Positions 32,248 to 40,208 of a DNA stretch of 40,208 bases are shown piece after piece. Within the stretch, counting starts at the first letter, position 1; each line of letters opens with the position of its first letter. Source of the DNA: Paraclostridium ghonii. GTDB lineage: Bacteria > Bacillota > Clostridia > Peptostreptococcales > Peptostreptococcaceae. The notes beneath the pieces were generated by a model. That model was not told the origin of the DNA and searched no databases. It saw only the letters and a program-made list of their open reading frames with translations. The DNA lies in assembly GCF_023653455.1 (NCBI RefSeq), contig NZ_JAKEDR010000008.1:1-40208 (forward strand). The letters are read 5' to 3'. Position numbers and translations under genes: made by a program.

Positions 32248-32742
32248 AAGTATCTCACTAACTACTTGACTTATATTTTTATTATCGATATCTATTTTTA
32301 TATTTGAACATTTTATATATCTATCATATCTTTGTTTTAATAGTTCTTCGATATAGGTTTTTAAATCTTTTAAATCTTTTAATTTTGGTCTGTTATTAAT
32401 TTCATTTTGTATATTGTTTATTATAGTATTAACATCTCCATCTAACCATATTACATTATTTGTATTCTCTAAAAGTTCAACATTATTTTCATTCTCTATA
32501 ATTCCACCACCAGTAGATATTATAGTATTTTCTAAATTGCATATATTTTTAAATAACTTTTCTTCTTTTTTTCTAAAATATAGTTCCCCATGTTCTTTAA
32601 ATATTTGATTTATAGTTTTATTTTCTAACTTTTCAATTTCTAAGTCCATATCTATAAAATCCATATTTTTATATTTAGCTAATTCTTTACCAACGCTAGT
32701 TTTTCCAGTTCCCATAAACCCAATTAGTATTATATTTTTCAT
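32236..32742 (-). CDS. aroK: Shikimate kinase
   Basis: 168 residues from the ATG at 32742; an ATG six bases upstream is rejected because the GGGAGA site touches it, whereas spacing to this one is normal. Walker A is 'GFMGTGKTSVGKELA'. The shikimate-binding region has 'DFIDMDLEIE' and 'ELYFRKKEEKLF', then 'ISTGGGIIE'; the lid has 'RPKLKDL'. It phosphorylates shikimate at the 3-hydroxyl. The ATG overlaps the upstream pseudopilin stop (ATGA), so its translation is coupled to the pilin genes. Confidence 0.95.
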   Translation of the reverse strand: MKNIILIGFMGTGKTSVGKELAKYKNMDFIDMDLEIEKLENKTINQIFKEHGELYFRKKEEKLFKNICNLENTIISTGGGIIENENNVELLENTNNVIWLDGDVNTIINNIQNEINNRPKLKDLKDLKTYIEELLKQRYDRYIKCSNIKIDIDNKNISQVVSEILVYI

Positions 32743-33266
32743 ATACATTCTCCCATATCATCTTTATATATTGAAAACTCAATACAATGATTTTGTTTAT
32801 TTTTAGATAGTTCTAATTTTATATTAACAATTTTACCATCTTTTTCTTTACCTATATATATGTTATCTAAATAATCACCTATCTCATATCCTGATTTGTA
32901 CCCTCGTCTTTTTATAAAAATCTTTTTAGTTTTTTTATTTAAAAATAACTCATCAGGCTCATTATAATCTAAGTTCACTTTAGATTTATAATAAATTGAT
33001 TTTGTATTAGTTAAATCAAAGTTTTTATCATTTGTTATTTTATTGTCTTCTGTTTTAATATTGGTTATTTCAATATCTTCTCTAAGTTCATTTTCTATAT
33101 GCCTTTGAATTTCTAATCCTTGTTGTTGTATTTCTATACTACTATAAATTTTTTGATACATACTTATTGATGATAACAAAAGACCATATAATATTGTCAA
33201 TAATATGCTAGTTATTATTATAGATACTGAAATTTCTAGTATAAAATACCCTTTTTTACGCTTCAT
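32739..33266 (-). CDS. Type IV pilin-like protein, GspJ/PilW-like
   Basis: 175 residues from the ATG at 33266 (AGAGGA upstream; the ATG two codons earlier sits on the ribosome site). It begins 'MKRKKGYFILEISVSIIITS': a short basic leader, prepilin peptidase site G6^Y7 and Glu at +5, then a hydrophobic helix of about 20 residues. The large C-terminal region is polar. Length and position as the last of four pseudopilins fit GspJ/PilW-type minor pilins that cap a pilus or pseudopilus tip. It overlaps the preceding pseudopilin by 11 bases and aroK by four. No assembly ATPase, inner-membrane protein or prepilin peptidase lies in the window. The exact class is inference. Confidence 0.78.
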   Translation of the reverse strand: MKRKKGYFILEISVSIIITSILLTILYGLLLSSISMYQKIYSSIEIQQQGLEIQRHIENELREDIEITNIKTEDNKITNDKNFDLTNTKSIYYKSKVNLDYNEPDELFLNKKTKKIFIKRRGYKSGYEIGDYLDNIYIGKEKDGKIVNIKLELSKNKQNHCIEFSIYKDDMGECI

Positions 33267-33695
33267 ATTCATCCTCTTTTAATAAAACCCTTCCACTAAA
33301 AGGTATTATCGTTATTTTAATTTTTTTGTCTTTTGAGTTAATTAATATCGTTTCTCCTTTTGAACTTAGTGTACCATCAGATTTGAATTTTATTGTTGAT
33401 GATGGATATGATAAGTTTGAGTTTTTGGGAAGGTATACTGTTTTTACTATACTAGCATTCTCTTTTATTACATATCTTGGTTGATCTTGTGAATTAATAT
33501 TTTCTAAACAAAAACTAAGATTTCCATTTAAGTTCATACTTCTAACATACCTTATATCTCCTACTAATTGCCTCGCAAATGAATCTACCTCATATTTTTG
33601 TGATTTTTCTTTTGGAAAGCTTATAACTAAAATAGCCATGATTATTCCAATTCCTATTACAAGTTCAACTAAAGTCACATTCCTTCTCTTTTCAT
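33256..33695 (-). CDS. Type IV pilin-like protein, GspH/FimT-like, frameshifted at its start
   Basis: The body 'NVTLVELVIGIGIIMAILVI' onward (about 142 residues) is a GspH/FimT-like pseudopilin with Glu at +5 of the mature form and a later 'SSTIKFKSDGTLSSKGETI' segment typical of this group. The only good ribosome site (AAGGAG, inside the end of the upstream gene) leads to an ATG at 33695, but that frame reads MKREGM and stops at 33677-33675. The pilin body is in the -1 frame. Adding one A to the run at 33692-33689 would give MKKRRN-VTLVELV, a normal prepilin leader. An in-frame ATG at 33747 exists but has no ribosome site and overlaps the upstream gene by 50 bases. So this is a point frameshift, an assembly error, or programmed slippage. 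Asn rather than Gly would be at -1. Confidence 0.65.
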
Positions 33696-33697
33696 AG

Positions 33698-34210
33698 TTA
33701 AATCTCCTTATAGTTATATTTATATACTCTTTTTTTATTTTCTTCATTTAAATTTATATTTATTTTAAATGAACACCTTGCAATTTTTTTAATTTTTTTA
33801 TTTTCTTTCCTACATTCTAAATCCAACTTTATATAGTTATCATCTAAGTAAATATCATTATTTACTACAAATATCTTTAAGTCGTCAACCTCTAAGTCTT
33901 CTATAGATTTTATAACATTTATTTTGTTATTTCCTAAAAAATAATCTTTGAATTTATCCTCTATATTTTCTTCTAAATCCTTACTTCCTAAAACGTTATT
34001 AACTAAAACGTTATTAACTTCTTCTAATATTTTGCTATAGCCTAAGTTTATACCTCCTTTTACATCATACTCTAGCTTCGTTGCATTTTCATGAGTACAT
34101 ACTATATCGTTATTTGTTTTAATAAGCTCTATACAAGCTAAACATATACAGCTTAATATAAAACAGCACAAAAGGGTTATAACCATTACTGATCCATTTT
34201 TTCTTTTCAA
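33698..34210 (-). CDS. Type IV pilin-like protein, GspK/PilX-like
   Basis: 170 residues starting with TTG at 34210, which overlaps the upstream stop (TTGA). It begins 'MKRKNGSVMVITLLCCFILS': basic leader, peptidase site G6^S7, hydrophobic helix, but no Glu at +5, a feature shared with GspK/PilX-type tip pilins. The rest is charged and Asn/Lys/Glu-rich, with no recognised fold beyond this. GGTGAG lies a few bases before the start. It is second in the four-gene pseudopilin run, and its 3' end contains the ribosome site for the next pseudopilin. Confidence 0.72.
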   Translation of the reverse strand: MKRKNGSVMVITLLCCFILSCICLACIELIKTNNDIVCTHENATKLEYDVKGGINLGYSKILEEVNNVLVNNVLGSKDLEENIEDKFKDYFLGNNKINVIKSIEDLEVDDLKIFVVNNDIYLDDNYIKLDLECRKENKKIKKIARCSFKININLNEENKKRVYKYNYKEI

Positions 34211-34575
34211 TTTCTCACCACATAACTATCTATTATTATTTCTTTTTCATAATACTTTACGCTAACTGATACTTTATAACATTCATAGTAATCTTGATTT
34301 TTTATTATTTTTGAATTTATAGAATATTCATCAATAGTTTTACTAGCATTTTCATATAAATTTTCTTCATTGTTGTTTTGCATTTTATATTCTATATTAC
34401 TCATTTCATTTTTTGCTAAATTAATCATTTGGTTGGTTTGTTGGTTTTTTTTCAAATTAAAAACACTAGTTGAAAATACGCTTACAACTAGTGATGATAT
34501 TATTCCTATTAAACTTAAAGCTACTATATTTTCTAAAATAAAATATCCTTTTTTCTTATTTTTATCTTTATACAT
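34207..34575 (-). CDS. Type IV pilin-like protein, GspI/PilV-like
   Basis: 122 residues. 'MYKDKNKKKGYFILENIVAL' has a ten-residue basic leader, peptidase site G10^Y11 and Glu at +5, then a hydrophobic helix to about residue 32. The short polar C-terminal domain and its position first in the run fit GspI/PilV. The ATG overlaps the aroE stop by eight bases, and the nearest AAAGGA is about 12 bases away, so translation probably depends on coupling to aroE. It overlaps the next pilin by four bases. Confidence 0.75.
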   Translation of the reverse strand: MYKDKNKKKGYFILENIVALSLIGIISSLVVSVFSTSVFNLKKNQQTNQMINLAKNEMSNIEYKMQNNNEENLYENASKTIDEYSINSKIIKNQDYYECYKVSVSVKYYEKEIIIDSYVVRN

Positions 34576-35419
34576 TTTTTAATATATCCTTTAAATTTCC
34601 ATTCTCATTTACATAAATACCTGTCCATATATAAAATCCTTGTATAGCTTGATTTATAAGCATATCTATTCCATAAACAATATCAAGATTATTTTTTTTA
34701 CCCCAAGAGATAAATCTCGTTTCCTGTGGATTATATACAATATCGCATAAAAGTATGTCTTTTTTTATTAAATATATACTTTCATCAATTGGGCAATTAT
34801 CTTTATCTTTATCCATTCCAATAGGAGTTGTATTTATAATTATATCTATATTTTCTAAATCTTCTTTAGTTATAATCTCTGTTGAATATTTTGAATTTAC
34901 GTTGAAATTTCCATTTATAATATCACATATTTCTTTTGCATTTTTTTTACTTCTATTTCTTATTTCTATTTCTTTAACACCATTTGATGCCATTTCTACA
35001 GCTATACTTCTAGCAGCTCCACCAGCTCCTATTATTAAAATTTTTTTATTATAAATGTCATGCCCTTTATCTATTATAGATTTAACAAACCCAATCCCAT
35101 CTGTATTGTATCCAATTAACTTTCCATTATCATTTTTGATAGTGTTTACTGCACCTATCAATAATGCGTTTTTTTCAACTTCATCTAAATACTTCATTAT
35201 ATCTACTTTATGAGGAATAGTTACATTACAACCTTTTATTCCTAAAGCTTTAATTCCTTTTACAGCATTTCCTAAATCATCACTTTTTACATCAAAGCAT
35301 ACATATTTCATATTTAGATTATTTTTATTTATTAAATAGTTATGTATATTAGGTGAAAAACTATGTTCAACTGGGCTTCCTAATAGACATAGTAAATTGG
35401 TTTTTGAATTTATATCCAT
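34568..35419 (-). CDS. aroE: Shikimate dehydrogenase
   Basis: 283 residues. The substrate domain has 'LLGSPVEHSFSPNIHNYL' and 'KGCNVTIPHKVDIMKYLDEV' (catalytic Lys), then 'AVNTIKNDNGKLIGYNTDGI'. The NADP-binding glycine loop is 'ILIIGAGGAARSIAVEMA', and 'NTTPIGM' and 'YGIDMLINQAIQGFYIWTG' follow. It reduces 3-dehydroshikimate to shikimate. AAGGAGGT precedes the ATG and a TATAAT lies about 40 bases upstream, so it heads the aroE-pilins-aroK-aroQ unit. Confidence 0.97.
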   Translation of the reverse strand: MDINSKTNLLCLLGSPVEHSFSPNIHNYLINKNNLNMKYVCFDVKSDDLGNAVKGIKALGIKGCNVTIPHKVDIMKYLDEVEKNALLIGAVNTIKNDNGKLIGYNTDGIGFVKSIIDKGHDIYNKKILIIGAGGAARSIAVEMASNGVKEIEIRNRSKKNAKEICDIINGNFNVNSKYSTEIITKEDLENIDIIINTTPIGMDKDKDNCPIDESIYLIKKDILLCDIVYNPQETRFISWGKKNNLDIVYGIDMLINQAIQGFYIWTGIYVNENGNLKDILKNV

Positions 35420-35675: not shown

Positions 35676-37958
35676 TTATAATGCATTAATCATAGAATAT
35701 TCAGCGTAAATGGATTCTTTATTTAATATGCAAATTTTCTTTTCATCATAATCGATTTTTTCTTTTATATTGATATTTATTTCTACCTCTATACTATTTG
35801 TATTTTCTAGTACATTGATTGATCCTCCATATATTTTAACTATAGATTTCGCAACTTCTAAATTCATATTTATATTTTCTTTTGATTGATTGTTTAAATA
35901 CGCATCTTTATCATGTCCACCTATGTTTTTGATATATATATTTAAACCCTTTATGTTATCTATAATTTCAACATATATAGTACTATTTTGTATTGATTGT
36001 TTTATCAACTTACTAAATAATAATAACATAATTCGCTCTATATCATAAGGATCTACTCTTATTAATTTTTCTTCTATATTTGTATCAAATATAAATTCTA
36101 TTTTATCGTCTATAGAGTATTTATTTATTTCAATTATTATGTCTTCAATCATACTTACAACATCATAACAATCTACCTTCGGCTTATAAAAATCTGCTTC
36201 TAATTTAGTCAATGTTATTATGTTTTCTATAAGTCTTAGTGATATATAACTTTGTTTTTGTACTGATTTGGTTACATTTGTTATAAGCCCATTTTTATTA
36301 TTTGATATTTCATCTTTAAAAACAGATTGTATTAATTGATTAGATGACATTATCAAGTTTAATGGTGTTTTTAGCTCATGTGACATGTTTATAAAAAAAT
36401 GATTTTTTTGCTTATATTCTAATTTTTTCTTAGCAATTTCTCTCTCTATTTTTTCTGCTTTTATCTTTTCAGTTATATCATTCATTATTCCTATACATGT
36501 CATTTTATTATTTATTTCCAGGGTAATTCCCCCTAATTCTACATCTATGTATTTACCTTTCTTATTTTGTATCTTATGTCGTATAAATTTGACATCTTGA
36601 CCAAATTTATTTAAAACCCAAGAAATATCTTCAATGATATGGCTATTGTTAAATTCACCTAAGTTTTCAAATCCACACATATTCAAAAGCACTTCATTTA
36701 CATAGGTAGTTTTTTTAGTCTCAAAATCATATATATATATTCCTTGTGGAATAGCACTTACTAGAGATATATAATTTTTAGCACTTTGCTCTATGCTTTT
36801 TAAAAGTAAATTATACTCTGTAACATCTCTTATTATAGCTATTTCTTTTTGTATATTATTTTCTTTGAAACTTGCTTTGTCCATATTTAAATACTTATTA
36901 TTATATTTATTTATATTTCCTACAAAACTTCCTTTTTCTTTTGTACTTAATATAAACTCTTTTAAACTGCTATCATATATATCTATTTCTAAATTGTTAT
37001 TGTTATTGTAAATAATTTCGCTGTTTTTTGTTACAACAATAGTATGAGGTATAGTCTCTACAGTTTTTTTGTATTTAATCTTATTATAATCAATAATTTT
37101 TTGCGAATATTTTTTATAAGTTATATCAGTCATTATACATATAACTCCCATTATTTTATTATTGACTTTTAAGGGTGTATACTCACAATCAAAGTATCTA
37201 TTGTCTTTGCTTATGACCTCTCTATTAATTTTAATACCTATATCATATACTTGTTGTAAATCTAATAATACTTCTGTGCTATTTTCTACGCTTTTGTTTA
37301 AGAACTGTGAGAACTTTATTTTGTAATTGCAATATGCATATTCTTTCCAAACATTTGAAAAACTACTGTCTTCATTTGAGATATAACCATATTTATCTAT
37401 TAAAATTACACACTTATTATTTTGTTCTAATATTATGTTTAGAATTTCTTTTTTATTATTTAATATTTCTAATAAGCTTTTTGTATCTTCTTTAATGCAT
37501 TTTAAATTATCAATTTTATTTTTAAGTTTATTTTTTAATATTTTCAATTCAACTACTATGATTTTGTTTTTCTCTGTATTCTTTTTAATGTATTTTCTTA
37601 AAGTTGTATATAATACTCCTAAGTCTATAGACAAATTGATAACAATATTTAGCTCTAAGAAATGCTTGTTAAAAAATATTATTAATAAAAATAACAAACA
37701 CAAAGAACCTATTTTAAGCTCTCTGTATTTATATTTTCTTATATTTGAATTATACACAGTGTGTATGATTATAAAACAAATAATCCATGATATAACATAC
37801 AAATGAGGTAATTGACTAAAATTAAAAAAGTTTAAAACTATAGATATTGCAACCATTCCAGTCAGAACAATTTTATTTTTACTAGCATAAGAAAAAACAC
37901 AAAATCCACTAACTAGCAAAATCGATATATTTAGTATATATATCAACTTATATCCCAT
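35676..37958 (-). CDS. Membrane PAS sensor kinase with intact histidine but degenerate ATP-binding domain
   Basis: 760 residues. About four membrane segments lie in residues 4-100; a coiled coil follows at 125-175; then three PAS-like regions (about 175-285, 295-385, 393-497), each ending near a 'DIT' or 'DVT' motif. The dimerisation/phosphoacceptor domain is normal: 'FFINMSHELKTPLNLIM' with H527. The catalytic domain is not. In the N box both asparagines are replaced (L646 and K650 in 'IMLLLFSKLIKQS'). G1 reads 'KNIGGHDKD' instead of DxGxG, the F box is absent, and G2 reads 'ENINMNLEVAK' in place of GxGxGL, although 'SIVKIYGGSI' after it still aligns. It therefore probably cannot bind ATP and would have to be phosphorylated in trans. 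GGGGGC precedes the ATG; the partner kinase gene ends 31 bases upstream. No response regulator is in the window. Confidence 0.88.
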   Translation of the reverse strand: MGYKLIYILNISILLVSGFCVFSYASKNKIVLTGMVAISIVLNFFNFSQLPHLYVISWIICFIIIHTVYNSNIRKYKYRELKIGSLCLLFLLIIFFNKHFLELNIVINLSIDLGVLYTTLRKYIKKNTEKNKIIVVELKILKNKLKNKIDNLKCIKEDTKSLLEILNNKKEILNIILEQNNKCVILIDKYGYISNEDSSFSNVWKEYAYCNYKIKFSQFLNKSVENSTEVLLDLQQVYDIGIKINREVISKDNRYFDCEYTPLKVNNKIMGVICIMTDITYKKYSQKIIDYNKIKYKKTVETIPHTIVVTKNSEIIYNNNNNLEIDIYDSSLKEFILSTKEKGSFVGNINKYNNKYLNMDKASFKENNIQKEIAIIRDVTEYNLLLKSIEQSAKNYISLVSAIPQGIYIYDFETKKTTYVNEVLLNMCGFENLGEFNNSHIIEDISWVLNKFGQDVKFIRHKIQNKKGKYIDVELGGITLEINNKMTCIGIMNDITEKIKAEKIEREIAKKKLEYKQKNHFFINMSHELKTPLNLIMSSNQLIQSVFKDEISNNKNGLITNVTKSVQKQSYISLRLIENIITLTKLEADFYKPKVDCYDVVSMIEDIIIEINKYSIDDKIEFIFDTNIEEKLIRVDPYDIERIMLLLFSKLIKQSIQNSTIYVEIIDNIKGLNIYIKNIGGHDKDAYLNNQSKENINMNLEVAKSIVKIYGGSINVLENTNSIEVEININIKEKIDYDEKKICILNKESIYAEYSMINAL

Positions 37959-37989
37959 AACCTACGCCCCCTATGTATTTATGGCTATT

Positions 37990-40208
37990 TTAGAAATATA
38001 TATCAGCAAATTCTATATACATTTTTTCAAATATAGATGTTCTTAAATCCTTTATATTTACTAAGTTTCTATCATCTATATTTTCATATTCTTTTAATGA
38101 GATTATAAATTCACTGCCTTTACCTTCCTCACTATTTACTTTTATGTTTCCATCTTGCAAGTCTAAAAAAGCTTTTACCAAAGCTAATCCAACTCCACAT
38201 CCTTCTGTATTTCTAGATAGTGTTTTATCTACTTGTCCAAATTTAGTAAATATAAATTTCAGTCTATCTTTAGGAATCCCTACCCCATAGTCTTTAATCC
38301 CTATATTTATAAAATCATTCTCTTTATACATATATACTTCTATCAAGCTTCCAATTTCACTAAATTTTATAGCATTAGATATTAAATTCAAAACTATTCT
38401 TTGAATTTTATCTAAATCTATTTTTAAAATACTGGAATCTATATCACTTTTAAACTTAATATACACCCCTTTATCGTGTAAATACTCATTTACACAATCT
38501 ACTATATTGTTTGTAAGTTTAACAATGTCACAATATACAAATTCAACACAACATACTCCATTTTCTACATCTACAACTTCATTCATGTTATTTATTAACC
38601 TTTGTAATCTATAGCAGTTTCGTTTAACTAGTTTTGTATAATTTTCTATATGTTTGGAATTAAATTTAGACTTATTGTTTTCTAATATCTTATTCATATT
38701 AGCTATATTATTTATAGGATCTTTTAGTAATTTAGATGTGTTTATTAAAAACTCATTTTTTACATGGTGTTGAACATTCACTAAATCGAGTTCTTTTATA
38801 GCTTCTAAAACTCGTTCTTCATTTTCTAGAAGTCTTACTATAGCTAATAGTTGTTGTTCTTCTTTTCTATCTATTATAGTAATACTTACAAAACAACTTT
38901 TACTTTTATCTATTTCATACCTTTTATTTTCTCCATAGCATGCACTGGAAATATAATCATTTATAAATTTATTTATGCTGTCTATTTTAACTTTCTTTAA
39001 AATTTTTATCATAGACTTATTTTGGTATATATATTCTTTACTTTTTTTATCTATAACCACAATACCATCTGGCAAATTTTGCGCTAATGCTCTGTATGTT
39101 TTTTGATTTGCTTCTAATTGTTTAAGAGCTTCTTCCATTTCTGTTATATCTACGATTATACTTAGTAAAATATCACATTCCCCAGTTTCTATCTTCGTAG
39201 TTATGACTTCTATATAAGTTTCATCTATAGTTTTAAACTTATTAATTATTTTATTTACTTTTCCCTTTCTAACTTCTTCTAAACTTTCATTTAATAATTT
39301 CCTTTCATCTTTTTGTATTTTATCTTTTATTCTTTCCAGACTAACTTCTTTTTCACTTTTATCAATCTTAAAAATTTCAAATACTGAATCATTTATATAT
39401 TTAATCGCCTCCATATCATGAATTATAACTCCATCAGTTAATACATCCATAAGTTTTCTATACTTTTCTTCACTATCATTTAATTGCTTTTGAATTACTG
39501 TACTTTGAGTTATATCATTGAATATACATATTTTAATTTCTTTATTTTCCCTGATTTCCTTTGTGCATATAAACCTATATACCTTATCTTCATTATCATA
39601 TAAATTTATAGATTTATAACTATTTATGTCTATTTTATTTATCATTTTTATGCATTCTTTTCCATTTTTAAAATTTTTAATTAGATAATTCAAAATATTA
39701 ACTTTGTTTAAATTGATATTTCTCCAAGAATGTTGATTACAATAAATTATGTTATTTTTTTCATTTAACATTACTATAGGCATATCTGACTCTTCAATTG
39801 ATTTATTTATATTTTTCTCTATTTTCAATATATCATCTTTGTATTCACATTGAATTATTGTCTCATTTTTTACATTTGAATTTAGTGTGTTTATATTTTC
39901 ATTTACTTTGTCTATTTTTTTTCTATTTTCATCAAATTTGCTTTTTTTCAATTTCATATTGTCTATTATAAAAAACTTGCATATAAATATATTTAGTAAA
40001 ATATTTAAAGCAAAATATACATTTAAATTAAAACCTAAATATATTAAACTTGCTGTATTTAGTGTTATTAAAGCTATAAGCTGAATGTTTTTAAGCTTTA
40101 ACTTATGCCTTACAGCATAAAAATAAATAGATTTTATAAATGTATATATTGCTAATATATACATATCTATTTTCGAAATTTTATAATTACTAGAAAGAAT
40201 ATATATAT
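37990..40208 (-). CDS. Membrane PAS sensor kinase with intact ATP site but no phosphoacceptor histidine (partial)
   Basis: At least 724 residues from an ATG at 40164. That ATG has no ribosome site and the frame stays open to the right edge, so the true start is probably outside and more membrane segments may be missing. Visible are hydrophobic segments around residues 28-68, a polar coiled region, and three PAS-like regions (about 118-222, 232-345, 355-450). The H-box region aligns as 'KNEFLINTSKLLKDPINNI': Lys (K478) replaces His and Leu replaces Glu. The catalytic domain is intact: N box 'NLISNAIKF' (593-601), G1 'DYGVGIP' (625-631), F box 'KFGQVDKT', G2 'GCGVGLALVK' (655-664). It should bind ATP but cannot accept phosphate at the usual place. 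It is 31 bases upstream of the complementary kinase gene. Confidence 0.85.
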   Translation of the reverse strand, partial: IYILSSNYKISKIDMYILAIYTFIKSIYFYAVRHKLKLKNIQLIALITLNTASLIYLGFNLNVYFALNILLNIFICKFFIIDNMKLKKSKFDENRKKIDKVNENINTLNSNVKNETIIQCEYKDDILKIEKNINKSIEESDMPIVMLNEKNNIIYCNQHSWRNINLNKVNILNYLIKNFKNGKECIKMINKIDINSYKSINLYDNEDKVYRFICTKEIRENKEIKICIFNDITQSTVIQKQLNDSEEKYRKLMDVLTDGVIIHDMEAIKYINDSVFEIFKIDKSEKEVSLERIKDKIQKDERKLLNESLEEVRKGKVNKIINKFKTIDETYIEVITTKIETGECDILLSIIVDITEMEEALKQLEANQKTYRALAQNLPDGIVVIDKKSKEYIYQNKSMIKILKKVKIDSINKFINDYISSACYGENKRYEIDKSKSCFVSITIIDRKEEQQLLAIVRLLENEERVLEAIKELDLVNVQHHVKNEFLINTSKLLKDPINNIANMNKILENNKSKFNSKHIENYTKLVKRNCYRLQRLINNMNEVVDVENGVCCVEFVYCDIVKLTNNIVDCVNEYLHDKGVYIKFKSDIDSSILKIDLDKIQRIVLNLISNAIKFSEIGSLIEVYMYKENDFINIGIKDYGVGIPKDRLKFIFTKFGQVDKTLSRNTEGCGVGLALVKAFLDLQDGNIKVNSEEGKGSEFIISLKEYENIDDRNLVNIKDLRTSIFEKMYIEFADIYF

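Follow-up and report, generated by a model that had tools for sequence, protein, structure and literature searches.

Two adjacent membrane/PAS histidine kinases with reciprocally lost catalytic residues form a putative split sensor kinase in Peptostreptococcaceae

The DNA analyzed here (the window, 40,208 nucleotides) is the whole of contig C353 in the 3.53-Mb genome of Paraclostridium ghonii (G000 in our genome set). Near its right end, two histidine kinase genes, here called HKu and HKd, lie 31 nt apart on the minus strand (Table 1). HKu is truncated by the contig end, which leaves 738 aa with the reading open at the N-terminus. The ATG at 40164 was ruled out as its true start, as orthologues have 748-822 aa (one interrupted copy aside), and this start is also contradicted by another contig of the same genome (C32), on which sigK is followed by an HKu-like N-terminus. 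Contig C32 begins with ~105 bases (L243:1-105) that are purine-rich, of low complexity and unlike the gene that follows; they probably arose as an artefact of assembly where HKu is broken between contigs.

Table 1. Coordinates of HKu, HKd, their domains and the downstream neighbour in the window.
Feature	Coordinates	Strand	Description	Basis
HKu	37990..40208 (contig end)	-	Membrane/PAS histidine kinase, ATP site intact, without His	ORF, Pfam
HKu, three PAS-like domains	38827..39786	-	Residues 141-460 (738-aa numbering)	AlphaFold reading; PAS_8 54.8 bits
HKu, His-less DHp domain	38551..38772	-	Residues 479-552	HisKA 17.5 bits, below cut-off (26.9)
HKu, K492 (= K478 counted from ATG 40164)	38731..38733	-	Replaces His	No H in 29/29 copies
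HKu, intact CA (ATP-binding) domain	38083..38550	-	Residues 553-708	HATPase_c 78.7 bits (cut-off 26.4)
HKd	35676..37958	-	760-aa membrane/PAS histidine kinase, phospho-acceptor His kept, without ATP site	ORF, Pfam, orthologues
HKd, N-terminal membrane helices and long helix	37419..37958	-	Residues 1-180	Reading of AlphaFold secondary structure
HKd, three PAS-like domains	36477..37418	-	Residues 181-494	AlphaFold reading; weak PAS_8/PAS_4/PAS_9 matches
HKd, DHp domain	36183..36422	-	Residues 513-592	HisKA match 518-588, 32.9 bits (cut-off 26.9)
HKd, H527	36378..36380	-	Phospho-acceptor in SHELKTP, HExxT phosphatase-type motif	H/E/T/P kept in 31/31 copies
HKd, degenerate CA-like domain	35760..36182	-	Residues 593-733	N/G1/G2 boxes lost, ~13 residues of the G1-lid region deleted
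aroE	34568..35419	-	Downstream neighbour (context)	Shikimate_dh_N 106.5 bits

In the genome G002 the gene order at this locus is pdp, yceG, O-methyltransferase, peptidase U32, udk, PBP, sigK, HKu, HKd, aroE. The pair is thus flanked by sigK upstream, as seen in relatives, and by aroE downstream, and no response regulator was found among the neighbours on either side, in agreement with the initial annotation of the window. In each of the 20 genomes of the distance analysis described below, the retrieved stretch contained the marker genes of the neighbourhood; in G019 and G022, judged by lengths only, no gene of aroE size follows HKd. In G002, the surroundings of the pair gave 54 promoter matches, which does not exceed the number in shuffled sequence (mean 59.8). 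A terminator-like site lies within the start of HKd, on the HKd strand, in the same genome (two sites in the region vs 0.6 in shuffles), and counts against the explanation favoured below. Four small prepilin-like ORFs with hydrophobic N-termini of the type GYFILE..., NVTLVELVIGIGII, were observed between a shikimate kinase-like gene and aroE (32739-34575); two relatives of these ORFs in G002 had no Pfam match.

HKu and HKd are homologous, with 26% identity over 443 columns. Read from AlphaFold secondary structure, both appear to consist of a membrane part, three PAS-like domains and a kinase core, which is the layout first described for them; Pfam matches to the PAS domains of HKd are weak. 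The profile comparison called for at that stage gave a complementary result, in which HKd matches HisKA with no HATPase_c match, HKu matches HATPase_c with its HisKA match below the cut-off, and neither protein has both domains above the Pfam cut-offs. A CA fold is still predicted for HKd, with a pLDDT of 79-91 for the block of residues 601-730 and a pTM of just 0.32 for the whole model. The layout is that of orphan sporulation kinases (membrane part, PAS and HisKA, no adjacent regulator), with the HisKA match of HKu below the cut-off. HPt/P1 and CheW-like domains, as expected of CheA-type kinases, were absent by Pfam from the window proteins, and none is listed for the A1 and A2 members.

The initial annotation had drawn attention to a reciprocal loss of catalytic residues, and this observation was confirmed. 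In HKd of the window, H527 stands in a canonical H box, the two N-box columns hold leucine and lysine (L646 and K650), and neither a G1 nor a G2 motif is left; in HKu the N, G1, F and G2 boxes are intact and the H-box histidine is replaced by lysine. Residues were then counted in a single alignment of 29 HKu and 31 HKd copies (32 HKd rows, with the copy of G054 in two pieces). None of the 29 HKu copies has histidine at the H-box position, which is instead occupied by seven different replacements (N in eight copies, K in six, Y, S and D in four each, E in two and R in one), and all 29 keep both N-box Asn, the Asp and both Gly of G1, the F-box residue, the lid Arg and the three Gly of G2. Of the H box, H, E, T and P are present in every one of the 31 HKd copies; neither N-box Asn nor the G1 Asp is found in any of them, and the second G1 Gly is deleted in all. 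At E<=0.01, HisKA was matched by 19/19 HKd and 12/20 HKu members, and HATPase_c by 2/19 HKd and 20/20 HKu members. The reciprocal pattern is more than chance, because it is fixed in 29/29 HKu and 31/31 HKd copies. Orthologues with both halves intact had been set beforehand as evidence against the idea, and none was found among these copies. Recent decay or an assembly error was ruled out by the fixation of the pattern in all copies from 12 genera. The ATP-binding catalytic domain and the phospho-acceptor histidine accordingly lie on separate proteins, as expected of a split kinase. Some ATP-site letters remain in HKd, namely the first G1 Gly (19/31), F in the F box (three copies, with Y in 23) and a Gly in the last G2 column (12 copies); the G1 and G2 glycines and the two HATPase_c matches count against the split-kinase reading.

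Among 71 Peptostreptococcaceae genomes, HKu (threshold E<=1e-60) was found in 29 and HKd in 31, and both genes together in 29. The expectation that the genes co-occur was borne out, since neither was found alone save for HKd in G001 and G068, where it lies at a contig end. Within the genus of the window, the pair is present in four of six genomes, and the three relatives are 80, 66 and 56% identical; of the remaining two, G001 has HKd alone at contig ends and G005 (75% complete) has neither gene. HKu precedes HKd in 28 genomes, while in G021 they are on different contigs, and wherever both share one contig they directly follow sigK in this order. The gap between them is 8-49 nt in 23 of the 26 relatives measured, the others being G047 (2 nt), G004 (-20 nt) and G017 (589 nt). 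Frame interruptions were seen in four of the 31 genomes, affecting HKd in G017, G019 and G054 and HKu in G047. The one in G017 is likely a draft error, because sigK is also split there, while the G019 assembly is a single contig, which weighs against a draft error in that case. In G070, which belongs to a pair-bearing genus, and in G008, aroE comes directly after sigK and both kinases are missing (L240 and L242); these sites are useful to date the gain or loss of the pair.

Profile searches at E<=1e-70, in which the two best candidates per genome were scored, gave no HKd outside the family: matches were obtained in 44 of 393 genomes of an order sample and in three of 391 genomes of a class sample, all of them in family f1. 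The 44 comprise 31 with HKd and 13 with a lower-scoring homologue only; eight of the latter were fetched and proved to be P1, a paralogue described below. Of the 80 matches listed in a contig scan, one is near full length (Paraclostridium tenue, L115) and the other 79 cover mostly the C-terminal kinase region.

Rates of change were estimated by domain for a single genome pair (G000 vs G002), which gave dN 0.042 and dS 0.404 for the DHp domain of HKu, 0.068 and 0.628 for its CA domain, 0.059 and 0.953 for the DHp domain of HKd, and 0.095 and 0.617 for its CA-like domain. Every domain of both proteins, including the His-less DHp domain of HKu, is thus under purifying selection in this comparison, and the relaxed selection expected of a pseudogene pair was not seen, with dN/dS well below 1 throughout. 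Fixation across 12 genera and purifying selection on both genes in this one genome pair support the complementary loss proposed in the initial annotation, as an old and maintained state and not a recent decay. The DHp domain, although it has lost its sole phospho-acceptor, is the most conserved domain of HKu by dN, which fits a retained role in dimerisation. The distance matrices of HKu and HKd over 20 genomes have a correlation of 0.962; after subtraction of the neighbour-gene mean, a partial correlation of 0.775 is left, the highest of 36 gene pairs. This co-variation could partly come from similarly fast rates and linkage.

The paralogues P1 (902-965 aa) and P2 (932-943 aa) form a second tandem in five genomes (G008, G050, G051, G056 and G058). 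In this other orphan-kinase tandem (L225, L226, L227, L233 and L298), a PtpB-like P1 is followed by P2, and the catalytic motifs are complete except in P1 of G056, which has Asn for the G1 Asp. The histidine and the N, G1, F and G2 residues are kept in 13 P1 and four P2 paralogues, and kinases of the PtpA, PtpC, Q and R types also retain both halves. Kinases of genus g4 match PtpB, PtpA and PtpC of Clostridioides difficile in length (912, 915/916 and 618 aa), as compared with Table 1 of a review (PMC11210211). The first two of these lengths, with family membership, suggest that P1 is PtpB and are likewise the basis for naming the PtpA type.

HKu, HKd, P1 and P2 each fall on one side of a branch in our trees. 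HKu and HKd as sisters gave p-AU values of 0.312 and 0.165 in the first and second tree sets; the best trees of both sets place HKu beside the intact, PtpB-like P1 with weak support (61/87 and 53/33). A block duplication of an intact P1-P2 tandem was also considered, given the shared gene order; HKd with P2 was not rejected (p-AU 0.463). The tandem duplication from which the initial annotation derived the pair is, on these sequences, neither shown nor rejected. HKu and P1 have in common a lid of the QVDKTLSRNTEG-like form. The motif SSNQL follows the H box in 10/13 HKd rows and 11/12 P1/PtpB-like rows, and in 0/20 rows of the P2, PtpA, PtpC, Q and R types and 0/13 HKu rows.

We propose that HKu and HKd probably make up a single split bifunctional sensor histidine kinase, each contributing one half, and that the ATP domain of HKu phosphorylates H527 of HKd. 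The two proteins would pair via their DHp helices, on both of which selection still acts, and a dimer would then contain a single working ATP domain (from HKu) and a single histidine (from HKd). Once phosphorylated by the ATP-binding domain of HKu, HKd would in turn phosphorylate a regulator, with Spo0A the most likely one, and its HELKT motif could dephosphorylate the same regulator when HKu is not phosphorylating HKd. Kinase output would then need both sets of membrane/PAS inputs. The heterodimer, the direction of transfer, the AND-gate logic and the target are all parts of this model that we infer.

Spo0A is a plausible and probable target of HKd, because the H box resembles that of PtpB-like orphan kinases, the pair lies in a sigK neighbourhood and no regulator is adjacent. 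When 16 kinases of G000 caught by one H-box pattern (L244-L259) were compared, the eight with a Pfam-confirmed adjacent regulator had T or A at H+7, six had N at H+7 and no regulator among the neighbours checked by Pfam, and the other two had A and T with no regulator found. HKd has N at this position in 13/13 rows. A Spo0A_C match was obtained in 59 of the 71 family genomes, including 30 of the 31 with HKd; the exception is G001, a 370-contig assembly. The spo0A gene and the pair are separated by 17-18 kb in most cases, by 13 kb in G019 and G020 and by 31 kb in G058. This linkage to the locus also holds in G070, which has no pair, and so speaks against a special association. Many Spo0A-bearing genomes of the family, among them all eight of g4, lack the pair, which is therefore not a universal sporulation switch. 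All 31 genomes with HKd carry sigK (in two pieces in G017), and the pair is found in none of the 16 family genomes without a SigK/SigE-type match, which are related and do not count as independent cases. Partial sigK matches, often broken near profile position 143-145, were observed in G010, G012, G013, G015, G027 and G059-G064, and suggest an interrupting element. These genomes lack the pair, and the pair genomes have sigK whole, apart from G017 with its probable draft errors.

Spo0B is short and is not known to carry sensor domains. We consider it unlikely that HKd is a phosphotransferase of the Spo0B kind that receives phosphate from other, complete kinases, with HKu an ATP-sensing pseudokinase that regulates by contact and transfers no phosphate. 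The DHp domain and lid-less CA-like fold of HKd do resemble Spo0B, in that the histidine is carried on a DHp domain next to a degenerate CA domain whose fold is predicted, and the six G000 kinases with N at H+7 and no regulator among the neighbours checked would fit this reading. HKd is not a short, sensor-less protein, however, but has 760 aa with its own N-terminal helices and three PAS-like domains, and HKu retains each of the catalytic N-, G1-, F- and G2-box residues checked in 29/29 copies, which goes beyond what bare ATP sensing needs. Spo0B was not found among the structure matches listed, which carries no weight against this reading. A classical phosphorelay is described as absent from Peptostreptococcaceae in excerpts of the review (PMC11210211).

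The pair might instead be a hetero-oligomeric phosphatase that mainly dephosphorylates Spo0A~P and represses sporulation, with HKu-bound ATP as a conformational co-factor. H, E and T of the HExxT motif are kept in 31/31 HKd copies, and PtpA and PtpB are mostly Spo0A phosphatases according to parts of the same review (PMC11210211). The same motif and histidine also serve kinase transfer, however, and all checked catalytic residues of HKu are conserved, which makes a predominantly phosphatase role rather improbable. That both genes are degenerate kinases drifting to loss, as the interrupted frames in four of 31 genomes and the missing pair in G070 might indicate, is strongly disfavoured by the dN/dS values of every domain (G000 vs G002) and by complementary residues invariant across 12 genera.

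A split kinase of HKu and HKd would have several counterparts among known systems. HK1/HK2-TcrA of Mycobacterium tuberculosis is a natural HisKA-type split kinase encoded by neighbouring genes, but HK1 and HK2 are short proteins with one domain each, whereas HKu and HKd keep whole layouts and are conserved family-wide. DivL carries a conserved tyrosine at the H site, and the partners RetS and GacS are not known to be reciprocal halves. Both systems were among the structure matches listed: RetS-GacS (PDB 7n0e) likewise joins two HisKA-type kinases in one hetero-complex, and DivL (PDB 4q20) is, like HKu, a histidine kinase relative without the histidine and with a CA domain. HKu as a DivL-like tyrosine pseudokinase was ruled out, as it differs from DivL in having seven different residues at the H site, with tyrosine in 4/29 copies only.

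CheA3/CheA4 of Rhodobacter sphaeroides is described in passages of one study (PMC3591291) as having the ATP domain and the phospho-accepting histidine on separate proteins, neither of which autophosphorylates alone. HKu and HKd share this division, and no lone autophosphorylation is predicted for either; they are HisKA-type, full-length membrane/PAS paralogues, whereas CheA3/CheA4 are CheA-type, with P1/P5 domains, and belong to a cytoplasmic chemotaxis cluster. Hik36/Hik43 of Synechocystis is a split kinase with two-hybrid support, but there a CheA homologue is divided between an HPt and a catalytic part with unlinked genes, as stated in excerpts of its description (PMC7656254). The passages of PMC3591291 also count 1556 proteins without HATPase among 42417 with HisKA, 711 of them with an HE/DxxN/T motif, as possible split kinases, and the HELKT of HKd fits this motif class. 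Split kinases are thus already known; the conserved full-length membrane/PAS form of HKu and HKd did not turn up in searches of an open-licence library.

By analogy, the nearest functional parallel is PtpA/PtpB of C. difficile. In the review passages (PMC11210211), the histidine of PtpA is essential and that of PtpB dispensable, a hetero-oligomer is proposed, and the pair is proposed to remove phosphate from Spo0A. HKu and HKd are similarly orphan genes with a membrane, PAS and HisKA layout, and in both cases two proteins are proposed to act together on Spo0A; the intact PtpB-like P1 also adjoins HKu in the weakly supported best trees. PtpA- and PtpB-type proteins, in contrast, each have a complete catalytic core and are encoded apart in g4, whereas the division of labour in HKu and HKd is fixed in the sequence itself. 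The pair looks like a sequence-fixed form of a PtpA/PtpB-like division. Tentatively, and as a more ambitious suggestion, the pair may be a natural obligate-heterodimer kinase that arose when two full-length receptors degenerated reciprocally, acts as a two-input AND gate on Spo0A and sporulation across the family, and represents a fixed end-point of the partnership seen in PtpA and PtpB.

The identity of the Spo0A-phosphorylating factor of C. difficile is described as unsolved in parts of the review (PMC11210211), and a relay among several histidine kinases is held in one literature passage to be an open possibility for clostridia without a classical phosphorelay. HKu and HKd, from the same family as C. 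difficile, make this idea testable with two proteins. They also offer a natural experiment in heterodimeric kinase logic, with reciprocal residues, 29 genomes that have both genes, and intact paralogues as controls. Models of split bifunctional kinases give ultrasensitivity and possibly bistability, according to passages of PMC3591291. Such behaviour would be fitting for an all-or-none switch like sporulation. The two genes likely work only together, because opposite halves of the enzyme are kept in every copy examined, and they would help to decide when spores form.
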